Below are positions 1 through 18,479 of a DNA stretch of 64,000 nucleotides, piece by piece. The DNA comes from Sphingomonas bacterium. GTDB lineage: Bacteria > Pseudomonadota > Alphaproteobacteria > Sphingomonadales > Sphingomonadaceae. The notes under the pieces are model-generated. The model saw only the letters and a program-made list of their open reading frames with translations, did not search any database and was not told where the DNA came from. The position numbers were made by a program, and so were the translations under genes. Position 1 is the first letter of the stretch; each line of letters starts with the position of its first letter. The stretch spans positions 1-64,000 of the forward strand of contig NZ_JAQGKZ010000100.1 of the NCBI RefSeq assembly GCF_028289855.1. Reading direction: 5' to 3'.

Positions 1-243
1 CGGGCCGTTCTTCTTGACCAATTCGATGTCGGTGCCGCGCTCGCCCGACCCGTGGAGGAAGATCACCAACGGCCATCGCTGGTTGGCGTCGACGCCATAA
101 CCGCGCGGCAGGAACAGCTGATAAGGATAGCCACCGACGGGCGCGGGCTGGGCGGTTTGCACCCCCTCCGGCGGCAATGGTATCCGGGGTGCCTTGGTCG
201 CGGCGACGCTCGCCAGCGCGGCTAATGCCATGATCCACTTCAT
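1..243 (-). CDS. Alpha/beta hydrolase, N-terminal part only (runs off the left edge)
   Basis: The 81 visible codons give a short signal peptide-like start (MKWIMALAALASVAA) and then a PYQLFLPRGY stretch followed by LVIFLHGSGERG. The HGSGERG element is the oxyanion-hole region of the prolyl-oligopeptidase/carboxylesterase type of alpha/beta hydrolase. The serine, acid and histidine of the triad lie outside the window. The ATG overlaps the stop of the upstream permease gene (ATGA), so this is probably the last gene or a distal gene of the sugar ABC operon. A secreted esterase that deacylates a carbohydrate is a reasonable guess; the substrate is unknown. Confidence 0.7.
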   Translation of the reverse strand, partial: MKWIMALAALASVAATKAPRIPLPPEGVQTAQPAPVGGYPYQLFLPRGYGVDANQRWPLVIFLHGSGERGTDIELVKKNGP

Positions 244-11770: not shown

Positions 11771-14041
11771 GTGATTTCCTCCCCATCCCGCCGCGACCTG
11801 CTGAAGGGTGCCTCCGCGGTCGCGTTCGTTTCCGCTGCCCTCCCGGCTATGGCCAAGGCAGCACCCGCGAGCGATCCGTTCATCGAACGGTTGATCCGGA
11901 CGATGAGCGTCCAGCAAAAGGCCGGACAGTTGTCGATCTATTCGGACCCCGCGCGCACCGACGGTCCGGGAGTCAATCCGGGGCTGGTCGCGCAGAGCAT
12001 GGACCAGCTGAAGGCACGGATCGCGCGCGGCGAGATGGTCGGGCTGTTCAACGGCATCGGCACGGTGGCGGGGCGCGAGCTGCAAAAGGTCTCGGTCGAG
12101 CAGTCGCCGCACAAAATCCCGCTGATCTTCGCCGGCGACGTGATTCATGGGATGAAGACGACGTTTCCGGTGCCCCTCGGCGAGGCGGCCAGCTTCGATC
12201 CGGGCCTCGCCGAGCGCACCGCGCGCGCCGCGGCGGTCGAGGCGACGGCGAAGGGCATCATGTGGACCTTCGCGCCGATGGTCGACGTTGCGCGTGACCA
12301 GCGCTGGGGGCGTGTGGTCGAGGGGTCGGGCGAGGACCCGTGGCTCGGCGTCCAGTTTGCGAAGGCGCGTGTGCAGGGATTTCAGGGCGCGAGCCTGAAA
12401 GATGAAACCTCGATGCTCGCCTGTCCCAAGCATTTCGCGGCGTACGGCGCGGTGCAGGGCGGAATGGAATATAACACCGCCGACATTCCCGACACGACGC
12501 TGCGCGAAGTGCATTTGCCGGGGTTCAAGGCGGCGTTCGATGCGGGCGCGCTCAGCACGATGTCGAGCTTCAACGACATTGCCGGGGTGCCTTCGACCGG
12601 CAGCCATTACCTCCTCACCGATATCCTGCGCGGCGAGTGGGGGTTCAAGGGGCTGGTGGTCAGCGATTACACGTCGGAGGAGGAATTGATCCTTCACGGC
12701 TACGCCGCCGACGGCCCCGATGCGGTGGTCAAGGCGCTGACCGCGGGGTGCGACATGTCGATGCAATCGGGGCTGTACTGGAAGCATTTGCCCGATCTAG
12801 TGAAGGCGGGCCGCGTGCCGATGGCGGTGGTGGATACCGCGGTACGGCGGGTGCTGTCGGTCAAGAAGGCGCTCGGGCTGTTCGACAACCCCTACCGGTC
12901 GCTCGACCCGGCGCGCGAGCAGCGCGACGTGCGGCGGCCGGACGCGATCGCACTGGCGCGCGAAGCGGGACGCAAATCGGTGGTGCTGCTCAAGAATGAC
13001 GGCGATCTGCTGCCGCTGGCGAAGCGCGGCAAGATCGCGCTGATCGGCCCGGCCGTGTCGCAGAAAGGCGATTATCCGGGTCCCTGGGCGAGCTTTCCCG
13101 ACATCGACAGCTGCGTGACGGTCGAGGAGGGTTTCCGCGCCGCGCTTGGCGACAAGGCGAAGCTGAGCGTCACGCGGGGGTCGGATTACGAAGCGCTGAT
13201 CGACGGGGAGATCGACAAGGCGGTGCGGCTGGCGAAGGATGCCGACGTCGTCGTGCTGATGCTCGGCGAAAGCGCGAGCATGTCGGGCGAAGCGCAGGCG
13301 CGCGTCGATATCGGCATACCGGCGCCGCAAATGGCGCTGGCCGGGGCGGTGGCGGCGACCGGCAAGCCGATCGTCATACTGCTGCGCCACGGCCGCGCGC
13401 TGGCGCTGGCCGACGCGGTTCTCGAGGCGCCGGCGATCATGGCGACGTGGTTCCTCGGCTCCGAAACCGGCAACAGCATCGCCGACCTGGTGTTCGGCGA
13501 CTACGCGCCGCAGGGCCGCCTGCCGGTCAGCTTCCCGCAAGCGTCGGGGCAGGAGCCGTTCTACTACAACCACCGCCGCACCGGCCGGCCGCAACTCACC
13601 GACGACAGGAACTACAAGGCGCGCTACCGCGAAGTGACCGACGAGCCGCTCTATCCGTTCGGCCACGGCCTGACCTATTCGAGTGCAACCTATTCGCCAA
13701 CCGGGGTCAGCGCCGCGACGATGCCGTGGGACGGGTCGGTTACCGTCTCCGCGACGATCGCCAACACCGGCAAACGGCGATCCCATGAGGTCGCGCAACT
13801 CTATATCAACGACAAGGTCGCCAGCCTGACCCAACCGATCCGCGCGTTGAAAGGGATCAGGCACATCGACCTCGATCCCGGCCAGGCCGCGACGGTCAGC
13901 TTCACCCTGACGCGCGCCGATCTCGGCTTCGTCCACCCCGACCGCAAGAGTTACGCCGAACCTGGCGCGTTCGACGTGTGGATCGCGCCGTCGGCGACCG
14001 GCGGGGTACCGGCTCGATTCATTTTAAGTCCCGGTCGCTGA
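11771..14041 (+). CDS. GH3 beta-glucosidase (BglX-like), Tat-exported
   Basis: A 756-residue three-domain GH3 enzyme. The N-terminal TIM barrel includes GRVVEGSGEDPWLG and the KHFAAYG segment; the nucleophile aspartate is in KGLVVSDYTSEEE. The alpha/beta sandwich starts around residue 400 (SVVLLKNDGDLLPL), and the C-terminal fibronectin type III-like domain begins near 650 (HEVAQLYINDKV). The start chosen is the GTG at 11771 after a good Shine-Dalgarno; it gives a twin-arginine signal (SRRDLLKGASAVAF). GH3 enzymes release terminal glucose from beta-glucan oligosaccharides, so it would complete the work of the GH144 enzyme in the periplasm. Confidence 0.93.
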   Translation: MISSPSRRDLLKGASAVAFVSAALPAMAKAAPASDPFIERLIRTMSVQQKAGQLSIYSDPARTDGPGVNPGLVAQSMDQLKARIARGEMVGLFNGIGTVAGRELQKVSVEQSPHKIPLIFAGDVIHGMKTTFPVPLGEAASFDPGLAERTARAAAVEATAKGIMWTFAPMVDVARDQRWGRVVEGSGEDPWLGVQFAKARVQGFQGASLKDETSMLACPKHFAAYGAVQGGMEYNTADIPDTTLREVHLPGFKAAFDAGALSTMSSFNDIAGVPSTGSHYLLTDILRGEWGFKGLVVSDYTSEEELILHGYAADGPDAVVKALTAGCDMSMQSGLYWKHLPDLVKAGRVPMAVVDTAVRRVLSVKKALGLFDNPYRSLDPAREQRDVRRPDAIALAREAGRKSVVLLKNDGDLLPLAKRGKIALIGPAVSQKGDYPGPWASFPDIDSCVTVEEGFRAALGDKAKLSVTRGSDYEALIDGEIDKAVRLAKDADVVVLMLGESASMSGEAQARVDIGIPAPQMALAGAVAATGKPIVILLRHGRALALADAVLEAPAIMATWFLGSETGNSIADLVFGDYAPQGRLPVSFPQASGQEPFYYNHRRTGRPQLTDDRNYKARYREVTDEPLYPFGHGLTYSSATYSPTGVSAATMPWDGSVTVSATIANTGKRRSHEVAQLYINDKVASLTQPIRALKGIRHIDLDPGQAATVSFTLTRADLGFVHPDRKSYAEPGAFDVWIAPSATGGVPARFILSPGR

Positions 14042-14185
14042 TATTTGTCCAACTATCTGACGGATCAATTTTTTAGTTGCTGCATCGGCAACGGCAAGGT
14101 CGATCTGCCGCAACTATAGTGCCGCCGCATGCGAACTGGATCGCGAATTGGGCGCGGCCGGCGACGATTTGTGATTAACGGGTCT
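14042..14185. other. Intergenic stretch after GH3
   Basis: No gene is seen. It contains a T6 run without a convincing preceding hairpin, so a GH3 terminator is not clear. With the promoter and leader that follow, the gene-free gap before the first beta-helix gene is 312 bases. Confidence 0.5.
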
Positions 14186-14213
14186 TTGACCACGACGAAA
14201 TGAGTGATAGCCT
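14186..14213 (+). promoter_or_regulatory. Promoter of beta-helix gene 1 (TTGACC, 16 bases, TAGCCT)
   Basis: The hexamers TTGACC and TAGCCT with a 16-base spacer are identical in sequence and spacing upstream of all three tandem beta-helix genes, while the spacer itself differs. This is strong comparative evidence for a housekeeping-type promoter. The predicted transcript starts near 14220. Confidence 0.7.
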
Positions 14214-14219
14214 CCGCGA

Positions 14220-14353
14220 CGAACGTGTCCTCAGAGGCACGAGTCTTTCAGGGCCGGGAGGCATTCGCGACGCGATATCTTCCCGCTCGAGATGTTTAAT
14301 CCGTCCGCTGGCCCGATGAGGGGTCGTCCAGCGGACGTCAATGGAGAGCGGAA
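14220..14353 (+). other. Structured 5-prime leader of beta-helix gene 1
   Basis: Leader of about 134 nt. Hairpin I (14255-14285) pairs CGGGAGG with CTTCCCG and has an apical TCGC/GCGA stem separated by a TAT bulge. Hairpin II (14302-14337) pairs CGTCCGCTGG with CCAGCGGACG, a perfect 10-bp stem, with GGGGTCGT in its 3-prime side. Hairpin I has counterparts upstream of both sister genes, and hairpin II clearly in the second. A ribosome site (GGAGAGCGGA) follows. Confidence 0.55.
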
Positions 14354-15127
14354 ATGAAGAGATTGTTTGTAACATTGATGGCGGCGATGGTCGCCATGTT
14401 CGTGGCCAGTCCGGCGATGGCGCAGGCCACCCGGACCTGGGTGTCGGGTGTCGGCGACGACGCGAATCCGTGCTCGCGCACCGCGCCGTGCAAGACATTC
14501 GCGGGCGCGATTTCGAAGACCGCGTCGCCTGGTGAGATCGATTGCCTCGATCCGGGCGGGTTCGGCACGTTGACCATTACCAAGTCGATCACGATCGACT
14601 GCACCGGCACGTTCGGCAGCGTGTTGGCGTCCGGCACCATCGGCTTCAACATCAACGATTCCACATCGGCAACCCCCGGCACCGCCAGGGTCGTGCTCAA
14701 GGGTCTAAGCATCAACGGCGCGGGTACGACGTTGGGTACCACCGGCGTACGGGTCGTATCGGCACGCGATGTCGTCATCGTCAACTCGATCATCCAAAAC
14801 TTCTCGAACGCGGGGATCGAGGTCAACGGAACCACCCAGATTTCGGTGACGGTCGACGGAAGCTCGATCGTCAACGCCACCCGGGGCGTCAACGTGATTT
14901 CGACCGGCGGAAACGGTGCCGCCCGCGTCTACAACACGCTCATCACTGGCGGATCGACGTCGGGCATCACGGTATCGGGTGCCGGCAACAAGGCGGAGAT
15001 TTCCGGCAACACGATCATTCGCACGCCGAAGTCGCTGGACATCCAGGCGGGCGGGACGATCAGTTCGTACAACGACAACGTGTTGTCGCCCGGCGGCGAC
15101 GCGCCGACGATCATTCCCAGAGGCTGA
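14354..15127 (+). CDS. Secreted beta-helix-like protein, tandem paralog 1
   Basis: A 257-residue protein with a signal peptide ending in SPAMAQA. The mature N-terminus, ATRTWVSGVGDDANPCSRTA, with a second cysteine in PCKTFAGAISKTA, resembles the DUF1565/pectate-lyase-like cap that starts right-handed parallel beta-helices. About six degenerate coils of 20-25 residues follow (for example VVIVNSIIQNFSNAGIEVNG and ARVYNTLITGGSTSGITVSG). No catalytic motif was seen. The family is known only as hypothetical proteins to my knowledge; an adhesive or surface role is possible. It has its own promoter, leader and terminator. Confidence 0.8.
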   Translation: MKRLFVTLMAAMVAMFVASPAMAQATRTWVSGVGDDANPCSRTAPCKTFAGAISKTASPGEIDCLDPGGFGTLTITKSITIDCTGTFGSVLASGTIGFNINDSTSATPGTARVVLKGLSINGAGTTLGTTGVRVVSARDVVIVNSIIQNFSNAGIEVNGTTQISVTVDGSSIVNATRGVNVISTGGNGAARVYNTLITGGSTSGITVSGAGNKAEISGNTIIRTPKSLDIQAGGTISSYNDNVLSPGGDAPTIIPRG

Positions 15128-15174
15128 TCGACTTTCGGCGGATTTCTCGCGGGAACTCTACGACCAAGACGAAG

Positions 15175-15210
15175 AACCGCTCCCTGTCACGTGGCAGGGG
15201 GCGGTTTTTC
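15175..15210 (+). terminator. Intrinsic terminator of beta-helix gene 1
   Basis: A stem of AACCGCTCCCTG pairing with CAGGGGGCGGTT around a short loop is followed by a T-rich tail (TTTTTCTTTT). It lies 48 bases after the stop and is very similar to the terminator after gene 3. Confidence 0.85.
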
Positions 15211-15272
15211 TTTTCGAACCATATGATTTCCCGCGATTTTCGACGCTCACGACAATCACGATGAATGTATCG

Positions 15273-15300
15273 TTGACCATGGCGGGATGACTGCTAGCCT
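15273..15300 (+). promoter_or_regulatory. Promoter of beta-helix gene 2 (TTGACC, 16 bases, TAGCCT)
   Basis: Same hexamers and same 16-base spacing as for genes 1 and 3. It lies downstream of the terminator at 15175-15210, so gene 2 is transcribed independently. The gap of 308 bases between genes 1 and 2 is fully accounted for by terminator, promoter and leader. Confidence 0.7.
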
Positions 15301-15306
15301 TCGTCA

Positions 15307-15435
15307 ATCCAGTCGCCCGTAGAAGGCGAGTCTTTATTGAGGCCGGGGGTTTTCGCGCGACGATTTCTTCCTGTTTAAACCGTCCGTTGGCCCAATTGCA
15401 GGGTCGCCCAACGGCGCTGTATCGGAGAATGGCAG
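15307..15435 (+). other. Structured 5-prime leader of beta-helix gene 2
   Basis: Leader of about 129 nt. Hairpin I (15344-15373) is a weaker form with G-U pairs (CGGGGG against TTCCTG). Hairpin II (15384-15414) pairs CCGTTGG with CCAACGG: compared with leader 1 (CCGCTGG/CCAGCGG) both sides of one pair have changed together (C-G to T-A), and the inner CCC/GGG pairing is also kept. The shared element GGGTCG(T/C)CC is present. Confidence 0.5.
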
Positions 15436-16218
15436 ATGAGGAATTTGTTAGTCAGGATGATCGCGGTCGCGATCGCCGCATTTAGCGTTTATGCCACCCC
15501 GGCGATGGCGCAGGCCTCCCGGACCTGGATTTCGGGCGTGGGCGACGACGTCAATCCGTGTTCGCGCACCGCGCCGTGCAAGACCTTTGCCGGGGCTATT
15601 TCGAAGACTGCCGCGGGCGGCGAGATCAACGTGCTCGACCCCGGCGGGTTCGGCGGCGTGGTGATCACCAAGCCGATCACGCTCAAGTCGGATGGCGACC
15701 TTGGCAGCATTCTCGTGTCGGGTCAGTCCGGAATCACCGTCAACATCAGTTCGGCGACCTATCCGAACGCCAGAGTCGTTATCCAAGGGCTGGAGTTCGA
15801 AGGGCTCAATCAGACGGTCGGTCCGGGGATCAACGGCATAAACGTGATCGCCGCGCGTGACGTCATTGTCCTGAATGTATCGATCCGCGGATTCCCGACC
15901 GGCGTCTGCATCTGCGGTGCCGAAAAGGCGCGCGTTACCATCGACAATTCGAGCCTTGTCAGTAACGGGATCGGCGTCCTGATCAACAATTCGACTGGTC
16001 AGGGCAGCGCGAAGGTTTCGCGGAGCCTGTTCGCTTCCAATCAGACGTCGAGCATCCAGGTGTCGGGTGCCGGCAATACCGTCTCGATTAGCGCGAACCA
16101 GATGTACGGCTCGCCGAAGGGCCTCGACCTACAATCGGGCGGCGTGGCGACGACGTTCGGGAACAATTCGATCGGGACATCGGCCAGCGACGCGGCCGCG
16201 CCCGTCCCGCAGAGCTGA
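15436..16218 (+). CDS. Secreted beta-helix-like protein, tandem paralog 2
   Basis: A 260-residue paralog of the flanking genes. The signal peptide ends in TPAMAQA and the conserved module reads SRTWISGVGDDVNPCSRTAP followed by CKTFAGAISKTAAGGEINVL. The body is again a ladder of valine/isoleucine/asparagine-rich coils (VIVLNVSIRGFPTGVCICG, then SSIQVSGAGNTVSISAN). It has two additional cysteines in CIC, absent from the sisters. The C-terminal coil SPKGLDLQSGGVATTFGNN matches the end of the other two. No enzyme motif is visible. Confidence 0.8.
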   Translation: MRNLLVRMIAVAIAAFSVYATPAMAQASRTWISGVGDDVNPCSRTAPCKTFAGAISKTAAGGEINVLDPGGFGGVVITKPITLKSDGDLGSILVSGQSGITVNISSATYPNARVVIQGLEFEGLNQTVGPGINGINVIAARDVIVLNVSIRGFPTGVCICGAEKARVTIDNSSLVSNGIGVLINNSTGQGSAKVSRSLFASNQTSSIQVSGAGNTVSISANQMYGSPKGLDLQSGGVATTFGNNSIGTSASDAAAPVPQS

Positions 16219-16272
16219 GTTCCGGCGCTAAGATTCCGATCGGCGGCTGCGCCGCCGACGGTCGCTATGCCT

Positions 16273-16303
16273 AAGCCGCCCCGCCAATTGGCGGGGCGGC
16301 TTT
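16273..16303 (+). terminator. Intrinsic terminator of beta-helix gene 2
   Basis: AAGCCGCCCCGCC and GGCGGGGCGGCTT form a perfect 13-bp stem around the loop AATT, ending in TTTC. It lies 54 bases after the stop and ends just before the promoter of gene 3. Confidence 0.85.
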
Positions 16304-16319
16304 CGTCGTTAAGCGGTAT

Positions 16320-16347
16320 TTGACCATAGCGAATTGACTGATAGCCT
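16320..16347 (+). promoter_or_regulatory. Promoter of beta-helix gene 3 (TTGACC, 16 bases, TAGCCT)
   Basis: Identical hexamers and spacing to those of genes 1 and 2, starting 16 bases after the terminator of gene 2. Confidence 0.7.
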
Positions 16348-16353
16348 CCGCTC

Positions 16354-16479
16354 AAGGTGCCCTGAGAGGCGCGAGTCGAAACGGCGTGGGGCTTTCGCAA
16401 GCGATATCCTCCCGTTGCAATATTCACAGCGTCCGCGGGCGGAGGGGTCGTCCGTTGGAGCGCGAAGGGGAGAGCGACG
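16354..16479 (+). other. Structured 5-prime leader of beta-helix gene 3
   Basis: Leader of about 126 nt. Hairpin I (16385-16414) pairs CGTGGGG with CCTCCCG, with one mismatch, and keeps the apical TCGC/GCGA stem and the TAT bulge seen in leader 1. Hairpin II is less clear here, but GGGGTCGTCC is conserved. A ribosome site (AAGGGGAGAG) precedes the ATG. Confidence 0.5.
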
Positions 16480-17250
16480 ATGAAGACGATGGTGATGAAG
16501 GTGCTGGCTGGGGCGGTCGCTCTGCTCGCGGCCAGCCCGGCAATGGCGCAGGCGACGCGGACCTGGGTGTCGGGGGTCGGCGACGACGTCAATCCGTGCT
16601 CGCGCACCGCGCCGTGCAAGACTTTTGCGGGTGCCATTTCGAAGACCGCGGCGGGCGGTGAGATCAATGCGCTCGATCCCGGACCTTATGGTGCTGTATC
16701 GATTACCAAGTCGATCACGCTGCGCGGAGACGGCGAAGAGACTGGCGTGCTCGCGACGCTCGGCACGAACGGAATCATCATCAACGCCGCGGCGACCGAC
16801 AAGGTTATCATCGACGGGCTCGATCTCGAAGGTGCTGGCACAGGGCTCAACGGCATCAGGATCCTGTCGGCGCGCGACGTATTGATCGTCAATACCGCCA
16901 TTCGCGATTTCGCCGCGGCTGGCGGCAGCTGCGTATCGATCAATTCGGGCGCCCAGATCCGCGTTGTTGTGCGCGCATCGGTACTGTTCAACTGCGAAAC
17001 CGGCGTGTCGGTCGCAAGCACCGGCGGCGTGACAGCGAAAGCCAAAGTCTACAACTCGCTGATCCATGTCGCGGCGGTGGCCGGGATCACCGTCACGGGT
17101 GCGGGTAATTCGGCCGACATCAAGAACACCGAGATCGTGGGGACCCCGAAGTCGCTCAATCTGGTGAGCGGCGGTGTGGTCAATTCCTATGGCGACAACG
17201 TGCTCAATGGCACTGCGACGGATGCGCCCACGCCGATTGCCAAGCAGTAA
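16480..17250 (+). CDS. Secreted beta-helix-like protein, tandem paralog 3
   Basis: A 256-residue paralog with a signal peptide ending in SPAMAQA and the module ATRTWVSGVGDDVNPCSRTA followed by PCKTFAGAISKTAAGGEI. The N-terminal 45 mature residues are almost identical to the sister proteins, whereas the coils diverge (VLIVNTAIRDFAAAGGSCVS, KAKVYNSLIHVAAVAGITVTG). It has two extra cysteines in the central coils. The ending GTPKSLNLVSGGVVNSYGDN corresponds to the last coil of paralog 1. Function unknown. Confidence 0.8.
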   Translation: MKTMVMKVLAGAVALLAASPAMAQATRTWVSGVGDDVNPCSRTAPCKTFAGAISKTAAGGEINALDPGPYGAVSITKSITLRGDGEETGVLATLGTNGIIINAAATDKVIIDGLDLEGAGTGLNGIRILSARDVLIVNTAIRDFAAAGGSCVSINSGAQIRVVVRASVLFNCETGVSVASTGGVTAKAKVYNSLIHVAAVAGITVTGAGNSADIKNTEIVGTPKSLNLVSGGVVNSYGDNVLNGTATDAPTPIAKQ

Positions 17251-17283
17251 GCGCTGGCGCCGGCCCAGTCGGCATTAATGCAG

Positions 17284-17317
17284 AACCGCTCCCGCCCGCC
17301 GCGGGGGCGGTTTTGTT
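17284..17317 (+). terminator. Intrinsic terminator of beta-helix gene 3
   Basis: AACCGCTCCCGC and GCGGGGGCGGTT form a stem followed by TTGTTTTG. The stem is almost the same as that after gene 1, suggesting that whole transcription units were duplicated. Confidence 0.85.
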
Positions 17318-17351
17318 TTGTGTTCGGTAGAGACCGGGGCAGGATGGCGCG

Positions 17352-18479
17352 ATGACGCCCAGCCAGTATTTGCACGCCCATCTGATCGGCCAGCCGGGGT
17401 CGCGCGACCGGCTAAACACGCCTGCTTTGATCGTCGATCTCGACGCGCTGGAGGCGAATATCGCGGCGATGGCGGCGTTCGGGCAGGCGGCCGGCGTCGC
17501 GCTTCGCCCGCATGCCAAGACGCACAAAAGCGCCGATATCGGGCACATACAGGTCGCGGCGGGCGCAGTCGGGCTGTGCTGCGCCAAACTGGGCGAGGCG
17601 GAGGCGTTGGCGGCGGAAGGGATCGAGTCGATCCTGCTGACCTCGCCCGTCGTTACCTTACCTGCGATCGAGCGGCTGACGGCGCTCGCCGGGCGCATGC
17701 CCGACCTCGCGCTGGTCGCCGACCATCCGCAAGCCGTCGCCGCGCTAGCTTCCGCCAATAAAGGCGGCGCGATCCGCGTGATGGTCGATATCGATCCCGG
17801 CGTCCACCGCACCGGCGTCGCGTCGGCGCGGGATGCGGTCGCACTGGCGCGAGCGATCGCCGACGCGCCGCAACTGACCTATGGCGGCGTACAATTCTAT
17901 TGCGGGTCGCACCAGCATATCCCCGCCTTCGCCGACCGCCGCGCCGCGATCACCGACCGTACCATGTATCTGCAAACCGTGATCGCCGCGCTGGCCGATG
18001 CCGGGCTGGCACCGCCAGTAGTGACCGGTGGCGGCACTGGGACCCACCGGATCGACGGCGCGCTCGGCGTGCTGACCGAACTTCAGGTCGGGTCCTACAT
18101 CTTCATGGATCGCGAATATGGCGACTGTGACCTGGGGACGGCGTTCGCGACCGCACTGATGGCCGATACGCGGGTCATCAGTGCCAATCATCCGGGGATG
18201 GCGACGCTCGACGCCGGGCTGAAAGCGTTCGCGACCGAGGCGGGTGTGCCCGTGATCATGGCGGGCGCGCCGGTGGGCAGCTCCTATCGGTTCATGGGCG
18301 ACGAGCATGGCGCAGTGATCTTGCCCGATGGCGCGTCGCCGCCCGCGCTCGGCGCGCGCCTGACCGCGATGACCCCGCATTGCGACCCGACGGTCAATCT
18401 CTACGATGCCTATCACGTCGTGCGCGGCGATACGCTGGTCGCGATCTGGCCCGTCACCGCGCGGGGGCGGTCGGCCTAG
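17352..18479 (+). CDS. D-threonine aldolase / D-serine dehydratase-like PLP enzyme
   Basis: A 375-residue fold-type III PLP enzyme. The alanine racemase-like barrel begins with LNTPALIVDLDALEANI, and the PLP-lysine region reads RPHAKTHKS (Lys56 likely). Phosphate-binding GGGTGTH lies near residue 225. The C-terminal domain has HCDPTVNLYDAYHVV, whose His and Asp are the metal ligands of D-threonine aldolase and D-serine dehydratase. Expected reaction: cleavage of D-threonine or another beta-hydroxy D-amino acid to glycine and aldehyde, or deamination of D-serine; sequence alone does not choose. Its TAG stop overlaps the convergent hemE stop through a shared CTAG. Confidence 0.85.
   Translation: MTPSQYLHAHLIGQPGSRDRLNTPALIVDLDALEANIAAMAAFGQAAGVALRPHAKTHKSADIGHIQVAAGAVGLCCAKLGEAEALAAEGIESILLTSPVVTLPAIERLTALAGRMPDLALVADHPQAVAALASANKGGAIRVMVDIDPGVHRTGVASARDAVALARAIADAPQLTYGGVQFYCGSHQHIPAFADRRAAITDRTMYLQTVIAALADAGLAPPVVTGGGTGTHRIDGALGVLTELQVGSYIFMDREYGDCDLGTAFATALMADTRVISANHPGMATLDAGLKAFATEAGVPVIMAGAPVGSSYRFMGDEHGAVILPDGASPPALGARLTAMTPHCDPTVNLYDAYHVVRGDTLVAIWPVTARGRSA

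Follow-up and report, generated by a model that had tools for sequence, protein, structure and literature searches.

A selectively conserved, possibly structured leader precedes three tandem beta-helix genes in a Sphingomonas genome

A noncoding leader that precedes each of three tandem beta-helix genes in a Sphingomonas genome (3.1 Mb) is, on comparative evidence, under selection and not only a relic of duplication. The genes lie on the forward strand of the first 64,000 nt of contig NZ_JAQGKZ010000100.1 (hereafter the window), at 14354–15127 (copy 1), 15436–16218 (copy 2), and 16480–17250 (copy 3). An earlier note on this DNA, made from the letters alone, had described a cis element conserved ahead of each of the three genes; that description is well supported, and in a related species the element is more conserved than the gene behind it. 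At somewhat below even confidence, we favor a cis-acting 5′ untranslated region (5′UTR) that works as an mRNA stabilizer of the ompA type and is possibly read by a small RNA or a protein.

The key comparison is with G028, a related species of the same genus that carries a single beta-helix gene at the same chromosomal place: The order TonB receptor, GH3, beta-helix (one or three copies), aldolase-like, uroporphyrinogen decarboxylase is common to both genomes. The leader of copy 1 is identical to its G028 counterpart at 124 of 140 aligned positions, excluding indels of 1, 1, and 3 nt (119 of 145 columns with both trimmed to 140 nt), and 27 of 28 promoter positions agree as well. In the gene, 67% of the DNA, 158 of 257 protein residues (61%), and 56 of 96 four-fold sites are identical. 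Three flanking orthologues retain 298/405, 125/209, and 130/182 four-fold sites, in total 553/796 (69%). For this one species pair, leader identity exceeds that of the flanking four-fold sites (Fisher P ~ 1e-6) and of the gene's own four-fold sites (P ~ 1e-7). Taken per 30 columns, identity is 0.07–0.50 upstream of the conserved block and 0.73–0.93 through promoter and leader; the block starts near 14171 and extends inside the gene as far as ~14640, falling once to 0.60, beyond which the gene varies between 0.33 and 0.77. Because the G028 leader is far better kept than the gene, the flanking four-fold sites, and the upstream spacer, we conclude from these alignments that selection acts on it, and this case is independent of any folding.

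The same figures bear on the simplest alternative, that the units were merely duplicated and the leader itself does nothing. Common ancestry of this kind would fit the confinement of all clear members to a single syntenic position in two related species, and also the weak upstream likeness that copies 2 and 3 already show (36 nt by blastn). It is nevertheless improbable: a leader more conserved between species than its neighbors' four-fold sites, beside an adjoining spacer that has decayed, largely refutes it. A small upstream control points the same way. Based on listed open reading frame (ORF) starts, values were obtained for 16 of 35 listed genes, the other 19 having no match, an unaligned N terminus, no start found, or a position too near an end. 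Five of the 16 stretches (140 nt each, same contig) lay outside other listed genes, with per-column identities of 0.39, 0.52, 0.62, 0.82, and 0.82. One of the two highest is the beta-helix leader, and the other precedes an ORF whose frame is open upstream and is perhaps coding; the 0.62 stretch, before the aldolase gene, takes in 39 nt of copy 3, as the gene list used did not contain copies 2 and 3. Tandem arrays elsewhere also argue against ancestry alone. At nine other loci, each holding two or three complete copies (L117, whose second copy is a 140-aa fragment, was excluded), just two of 11 pairs are alike over most of 250 nt upstream. Those two share 80% and 98% protein identity; the remaining nine, at 46–79%, have no such upstream likeness. 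Pairwise protein identity among copies 1–3 is 48–56%.

Conservation does not stop at the start codon. The 5′ part of the gene (14354–14640) is better conserved than the 3′ part (14640–15127), even at third positions, both among copies and between species, and copies 2 and 3 behave similarly. Gene conversion could produce this pattern if a 5′ cassette (promoter, leader, signal peptide, and N-terminal motif) had been exchanged between copies while the 3′ bodies varied. Third positions of shared residues agree more often within alignment codons 1–70 than beyond codon 100 (38/51 vs. 33/74 for copies 1 and 3, 34/49 vs. 28/59 for copies 1 and 2, and 34/51 vs. 29/57 for copies 2 and 3), as conversion would have it. 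Yet the same gradient appears between species (45/61 vs. 43/76 for copy 1 and G028), where intercopy conversion does not act, and the leaders of copies 1–3 are just 62–67% identical pairwise, so any exchange would be old. We regard conversion as unlikely.

Identical −35 and −10 hexamers 16 bases apart had been reported before all three genes, and TTGACC-N16-TAGCCT is indeed found on the + strand at 14186–14213, 15273–15300, and 16320–16347; no fourth occurrence exists on either strand of the window, allowing one mismatch at most and a spacing of 15–18. The accompanying statement that the spacers differ needs qualification: Eight of 16 positions are the same in every copy, and these include a TG that stands one base ahead of the −10 hexamer (an extended −10 arrangement). 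Genome-wide, the exact pattern TTGACN{17,18}TAGCCT occurs four times, three of them being these promoters, and with up to two mismatches the promoter pattern is present in two of the 295 species genomes of the genus set. A scan for Escherichia coli-type promoters called none here, as the hexamers miss its consensus filter. They are compatible with the TTGNNN/TANNNN model derived from mapped Zymomonas transcript starts, where the 5′UTR has a median length of 114 nt, the discriminator measures 6 nt, and the commonest spacer is 17 nt (PMC7566282). Like those housekeeping sigma promoters as described there, the present ones begin their hexamers with TTG and TA and have a leader near the 114-nt median; they differ in the 16-nt spacer, the conserved TG before the −10 hexamer, and a hexamer pair that is rare in the genome. 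An EcfG stress promoter was considered and rejected, because TTGACC/TAGCCT does not correspond to the −35 GGAAC/GCAAC with a CGTT-like −10 given for Sphingopyxis (PMC7083833). Immediately 5′ of the −35 hexamer, a stretch with the pattern RTKAANNNRT is common to the three copies (14171–14185, 15258–15272, and 16305–16319) and G028; judged by sequence, an activator or UP-like site is possible there.

Between promoter and gene, the leaders of copies 1–3 (+ strand; 14214–14353, 15301–15435, and 16348–16479) are alignable and measure 132–140 nt counted from the −10 hexamer. A 6-nt discriminator (PMC7566282) would place the copy 1 transcript start near 14220; the leader lengths of 126–134 nt given earlier presuppose such an inferred start. 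From four leaders (copies 1–3 and G028) we built a covariance model, R1, comprising hairpins P1, P2, and P3 and an outer pairing, the last of which, disrupted in copy 3, was for that reason not counted among the pairs. P1 (14225–14240, 15313–15329, and 16357–16372) starts 10–13 nt after the −10 hexamer, which would correspond to roughly +4 to +7 given a 6-nt discriminator. P2 (14255–14285, 15345–15371, and 16385–16414) is the TCGC/GCGA hairpin that the earlier note had described as partly kept in copy 2, where it is present with a C-A mismatch. P3 occupies 14304–14335 in copy 1, with GGGTCGTCC, and 15383–15415 in copy 2; in copy 3 a P3-like hairpin at 16429–16463 has a shifted pairing register. 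It corresponds to the earlier note's hairpin II, and the paired change read there between copies 1 and 2 (C-G to U-A) is real, as is the segment GGGTCG(T/C)CC, which is invariant in all four leaders. P1, the hairpin with the best covariation, was absent from that list.

Pairing in the R1 alignment covers 95.2% of cells, and three pairs are changed on both sides (two in P1, one in P3), from four sequences only. The observed pairing and covariation are reached by 18 of 500 shuffles, and slid-partner controls are 42–59% paired with zero or one two-sided pair. P1 contributes most: its five pairs are kept in all four sequences (20/20 cells), two of them changed on both sides; it comes out first when helices that form in each of the four sequences are sought blindly; and it is present in a free MAFFT alignment too. 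Under a column-shuffle null on the four sequences, 21 of 1,000 shuffles contain a helix of at least five pairs with at least two compensatory pairs. In every leader the local folds of P1 and P3 are better than the mean of shuffled sequences, though not always by much (local z for copy 1, G028, copy 2, and copy 3: −1.9, −1.9, −3.5, −1.1 for P1 and −4.3, −0.6, −1.3, −1.9 for P3). P2 is conserved in sequence and has no two-sided change; its z in copy 1 is −2.1. Among 16 substitutions between the copy 1 and G028 leaders, three fall in the 54 paired columns, all preserving pairing, vs. 13 in the 91 unpaired columns, a difference that is not significant (P = 0.17). As for the proposal of a cis-acting RNA element, then, the conserved element stands and its RNA structure is moderately supported; the pairing evidence is suggestive, not proof.

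Several observations weigh against an RNA-level, stabilizing leader. Function at the DNA level would give the same conservation. Upstream likeness among the window copies is unequal by blastn (155 nt for copies 1 and 3, 84 + 34 nt for copies 1 and 2, and for copies 2 and 3 only 36 nt, in the promoter, plus a 10-mer), which is why selection is argued here from the comparison between species. Folding energy of the whole leader is ordinary (z −1.50, +0.83, and +0.79 for copies 1–3), P2 gains no support from folding energy in copy 2 or copy 3 (z +0.65 and −0.34), the minimum-energy fold of copy 2 lacks the consensus structure, and the upper half of P3 adopts a different pairing register in copy 3. 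Of 27 pairs, 16 are invariant; the sequences number only four, from two species; and the alignment in which pairs were counted had been fitted to R1. Finally, the Shine–Dalgarno sequence (SD) is about half unpaired in predicted ensembles (0.34–0.69 at 37–42 °C).

These points give some room to a DNA-level control region, in which the inverted repeats (TTCGC-N-GCGA and others) and the block around the promoter would be transcription-factor sites. We consider it rather unlikely, although conservation of the leader extends to the promoter with its spacer and to ~15 nt ahead of the −35 hexamer, P2 is kept more in sequence than in energy, and GGGTCG(T/C)CC does not vary in any of the four. Operators seldom need 130 nt, however, and P1 pairing is maintained while its bases change. 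Nor is a wider regulon visible, as the search of the genome itself with R1 found no other strong copy among the 150 of 2,045 first-look candidates that were scored.

On the reading we favor, a stabilizing leader acting in cis, a complete unit (its own σ70-type promoter, structured leader, beta-helix gene, and terminator) would have been duplicated; the protein bodies would then have diverged, with promoter and leader held by selection. The leader would most likely act as RNA: a P1 stem-loop ~4–7 nt from the expected 5′ end would be followed by two stem-loops and then by the ribosome site just before the ATG, and this ompA-like 5′UTR would set mRNA lifetime and translation. A protein or small RNA possibly reads the conserved loops, and recognition of the invariant GGGTCG(T/C)CC and of the P2 loop by such a factor would fit this role. 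We prefer an ompA-like role because a stem-loop at the 5′ end with further hairpins before the ribosome site is the layout of mRNA-protecting leaders. The enterobacterial ompA leader, a 5′-terminal stem-loop stabilizer studied by Emory, Belasco, and others, is ~133 nt long. The present one is of similar length and likewise precedes a gene for a probably exported protein, with additional hairpins and a ribosome site directly ahead of the gene; its first stem-loop would also lie close to the 5′ end. By contrast, the element described here has three hairpins and stands before three tandem paralogues in a sphingomonad. More generally, stabilization of mRNA by 5′UTR stem-loops is established (PMC7509114). 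RNA candidates from comparative genomics (PMC2864571 and PMC6429828) likewise comprise conserved structured RNAs before one gene family; ours comes from four sequences in two species, and its support is weaker.

Two other RNA- or translation-based roles were weighed. A thermometer or metabolite riboswitch is very improbable. Leader length and hairpins are compatible with either, and the predicted unpaired probability of the AUG rises with heat in copies 1 (0.47 to 0.69) and 3 (0.67 to 0.80), not in copy 2 or G028. In copy 2, P1 followed by GTCTTTATT (15313–15338) scored as terminator-like; the other copies are without this feature, which is possibly due to chance. The thermometer suggested by the earlier note finds no footing in the predicted unpaired probability of the SD, which between 15 and 48 °C goes from 0.54 to 0.44 (copy 1), 0.64 to 0.72 (copy 2), 0.55 to 0.47 (copy 3), and 0.38 to 0.34 (G028), shifts of about 0.1 or less that are downward in three of the four leaders. 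Also against either role, the P1-P2-P3 part of the model has no multibranch junction, and no Rfam family (release 15) matches the region at gathering score, tRNA being the only match in the whole window. A permissive Rfam scan of 14000–17400 returned five subthreshold matches, which we dismissed; the best, RcsR1 (25.1 bits vs. 60), lies across the end of copy 2 and its terminator. The second role, a conserved leader peptide encoded by an upstream ORF, is extremely unlikely and was rejected on reading frames. A frame starting MFNPSAGP does span P3 in copy 1 and G028, but indels of 1, 1, and 3 nt between these two break frames, the ATG is missing in copies 2 and 3, and the frame, which ends where the gene begins in copies 1 and 2, continues into the gene in copy 3 and G028.

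We next consider how widely the leader occurs. Within its own genome, R1 gives three strong matches, the next best reaching 19.5 bits (E = 0.07), and no strong copy stands before unrelated genes, with the scoring scope given above. The genus, order, and class samples overlap, and searches over more than 40 genomes used stricter filters, under which weak matches are lost. Across the 295 genus genomes, R1 strongly matches the three copies and G028 and weakly matches G033 (28.6 bits, E = 5.8e-4); we read the latter as chance, since it overlaps the start of a TonB-receptor gene encoded on the opposite strand. From the order, 396 sampled genomes yielded the genome itself and G028 and nothing new. 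A sample of 385 class genomes returned the genome itself and two weak matches (28–30 bits), in G998 (30) and G677 (28), also read as chance because the neighboring genes are unrelated according to their ORF lists. The covariance-model search of sphingomonads that had been proposed thus added one strong member, G028, and otherwise one weak match in the genus and none in the order.

Targeting the protein relatives gave the same result. R1 run over 36 genus loci with such relatives and 80 further loci (79 from GTDB and one from G028) finds the leader in G028 only; the best other match, L072 (19.7 bits), and L051 (16 bits) were dismissed as lying on the minus strand, and the remaining matches are weaker. 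Four viral contigs contain GGGTCGYCCANCGG-N13-GGAGA, none matching R1, and neither plasmids searched with leader DNA nor phages searched with the copy 1 protein gave a match. In the literature, to the extent that its text was accessible, no paper was found on this leader or on control of this beta-helix gene family. As far as searched, the element is therefore the local leader of one locus in one small lineage, with no regulon signal. The earlier note had picked out a real, selected element with its main parts correct; it lacked P1, the hairpin with the best support, and the element is far narrower than a regulon.

Hairpins follow all three genes, as had been claimed. They lie on the + strand at 15171–15210 after copy 1 (−33.1 kcal/mol, z −8.1), 16273–16302 after copy 2 (terminator-like, with a short T run only; the fold of 16262–16310 is −31.6 kcal/mol, z −5.0), and 17280–17316 after copy 3 (−30.5 kcal/mol, z −5.6). 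A consensus terminator scan called only that of copy 3, and its total of five calls is unremarkable against a shuffle mean of 3.0 (standard deviation 1.9). The copy 2 hairpin is a perfect 30-base palindrome that ends 17 bases before the −35 hexamer of copy 3. Because a strong hairpin stands after each gene and a promoter before each, copies 1–3 are probably separate transcription units, in contrast to some tandem pairs elsewhere in the family, such as those of L025 and L052, whose genes are ~50 and 26 nt apart.

The three genes (256–260 codons) are flanked by genes for a GH3 beta-glucosidase and for an Ala-racemase-like/hydroxyaspartate-aldolase-like protein, and their products belong to the same beta-helix family (257, 260, and 256 aa for copies 1–3). 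Each begins with a signal peptide, recognized by eye, that ends in AMAQA, and the products are probably secreted. AlphaFold2 predicts a beta-helix for copy 1 (mean predicted local distance difference test score 84), with the N-terminal stretch 20–45 predicted poorly. Foldseek against the PDB gave weak matches only (best E = 1.9e-3), pectate lyases and phage tailspikes among them. No Pfam or NCBIfam model matches copies 1–3 above its curated cutoff; the Pfam Beta_helix score of copy 1 is 21.4 bits, under the 25.9 cutoff, and the G028 protein likewise falls under it.

Relatives are more broadly distributed than the leader. A protein-profile match, in part weak, occurs in 41 of the 295 genus genomes, and the N-terminal motif RTWVSGVGDD.NPCSRTAPCKTFAGAISKT is common to relatives, among at least 79 listed loci, from records labeled as several phyla, many of them metagenome bins. 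Tandem copies of the family recur in several lineages (L025, L043, L052, L067, L083, L090, L093, L102, and L119). The Bradyrhizobium tandem copies (L083, upstream of 3649 and 4968) have a different common upstream stretch with an inverted repeat of the GCGTTCCTTCGGGAACG type, and distinct leaders may exist in further lineages of the family.

The leader belongs to a known kind, structured 5′ leaders; what is unusual is that it outlives the sequence of its gene, and a noncoding leader better kept than its protein is a clear sign of a working element. So few species have it that RNA libraries would miss it. A further reading, which we hold to be fairly doubtful, is that a new lineage-specific RNA element co-controls fast-diverging secreted beta-helix proteins, with a fixed 5′ cassette (promoter, leader, signal peptide, and N-terminal motif) and 3′ bodies free to change; if so, new protein variants would inherit the same posttranscriptional control. 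Three paralogues in one cell form a natural triplicate in which the leader's role could be separated from the protein's, and the leader would be a first point of entry to the regulation of a beta-helix family widespread among Proteobacteria.

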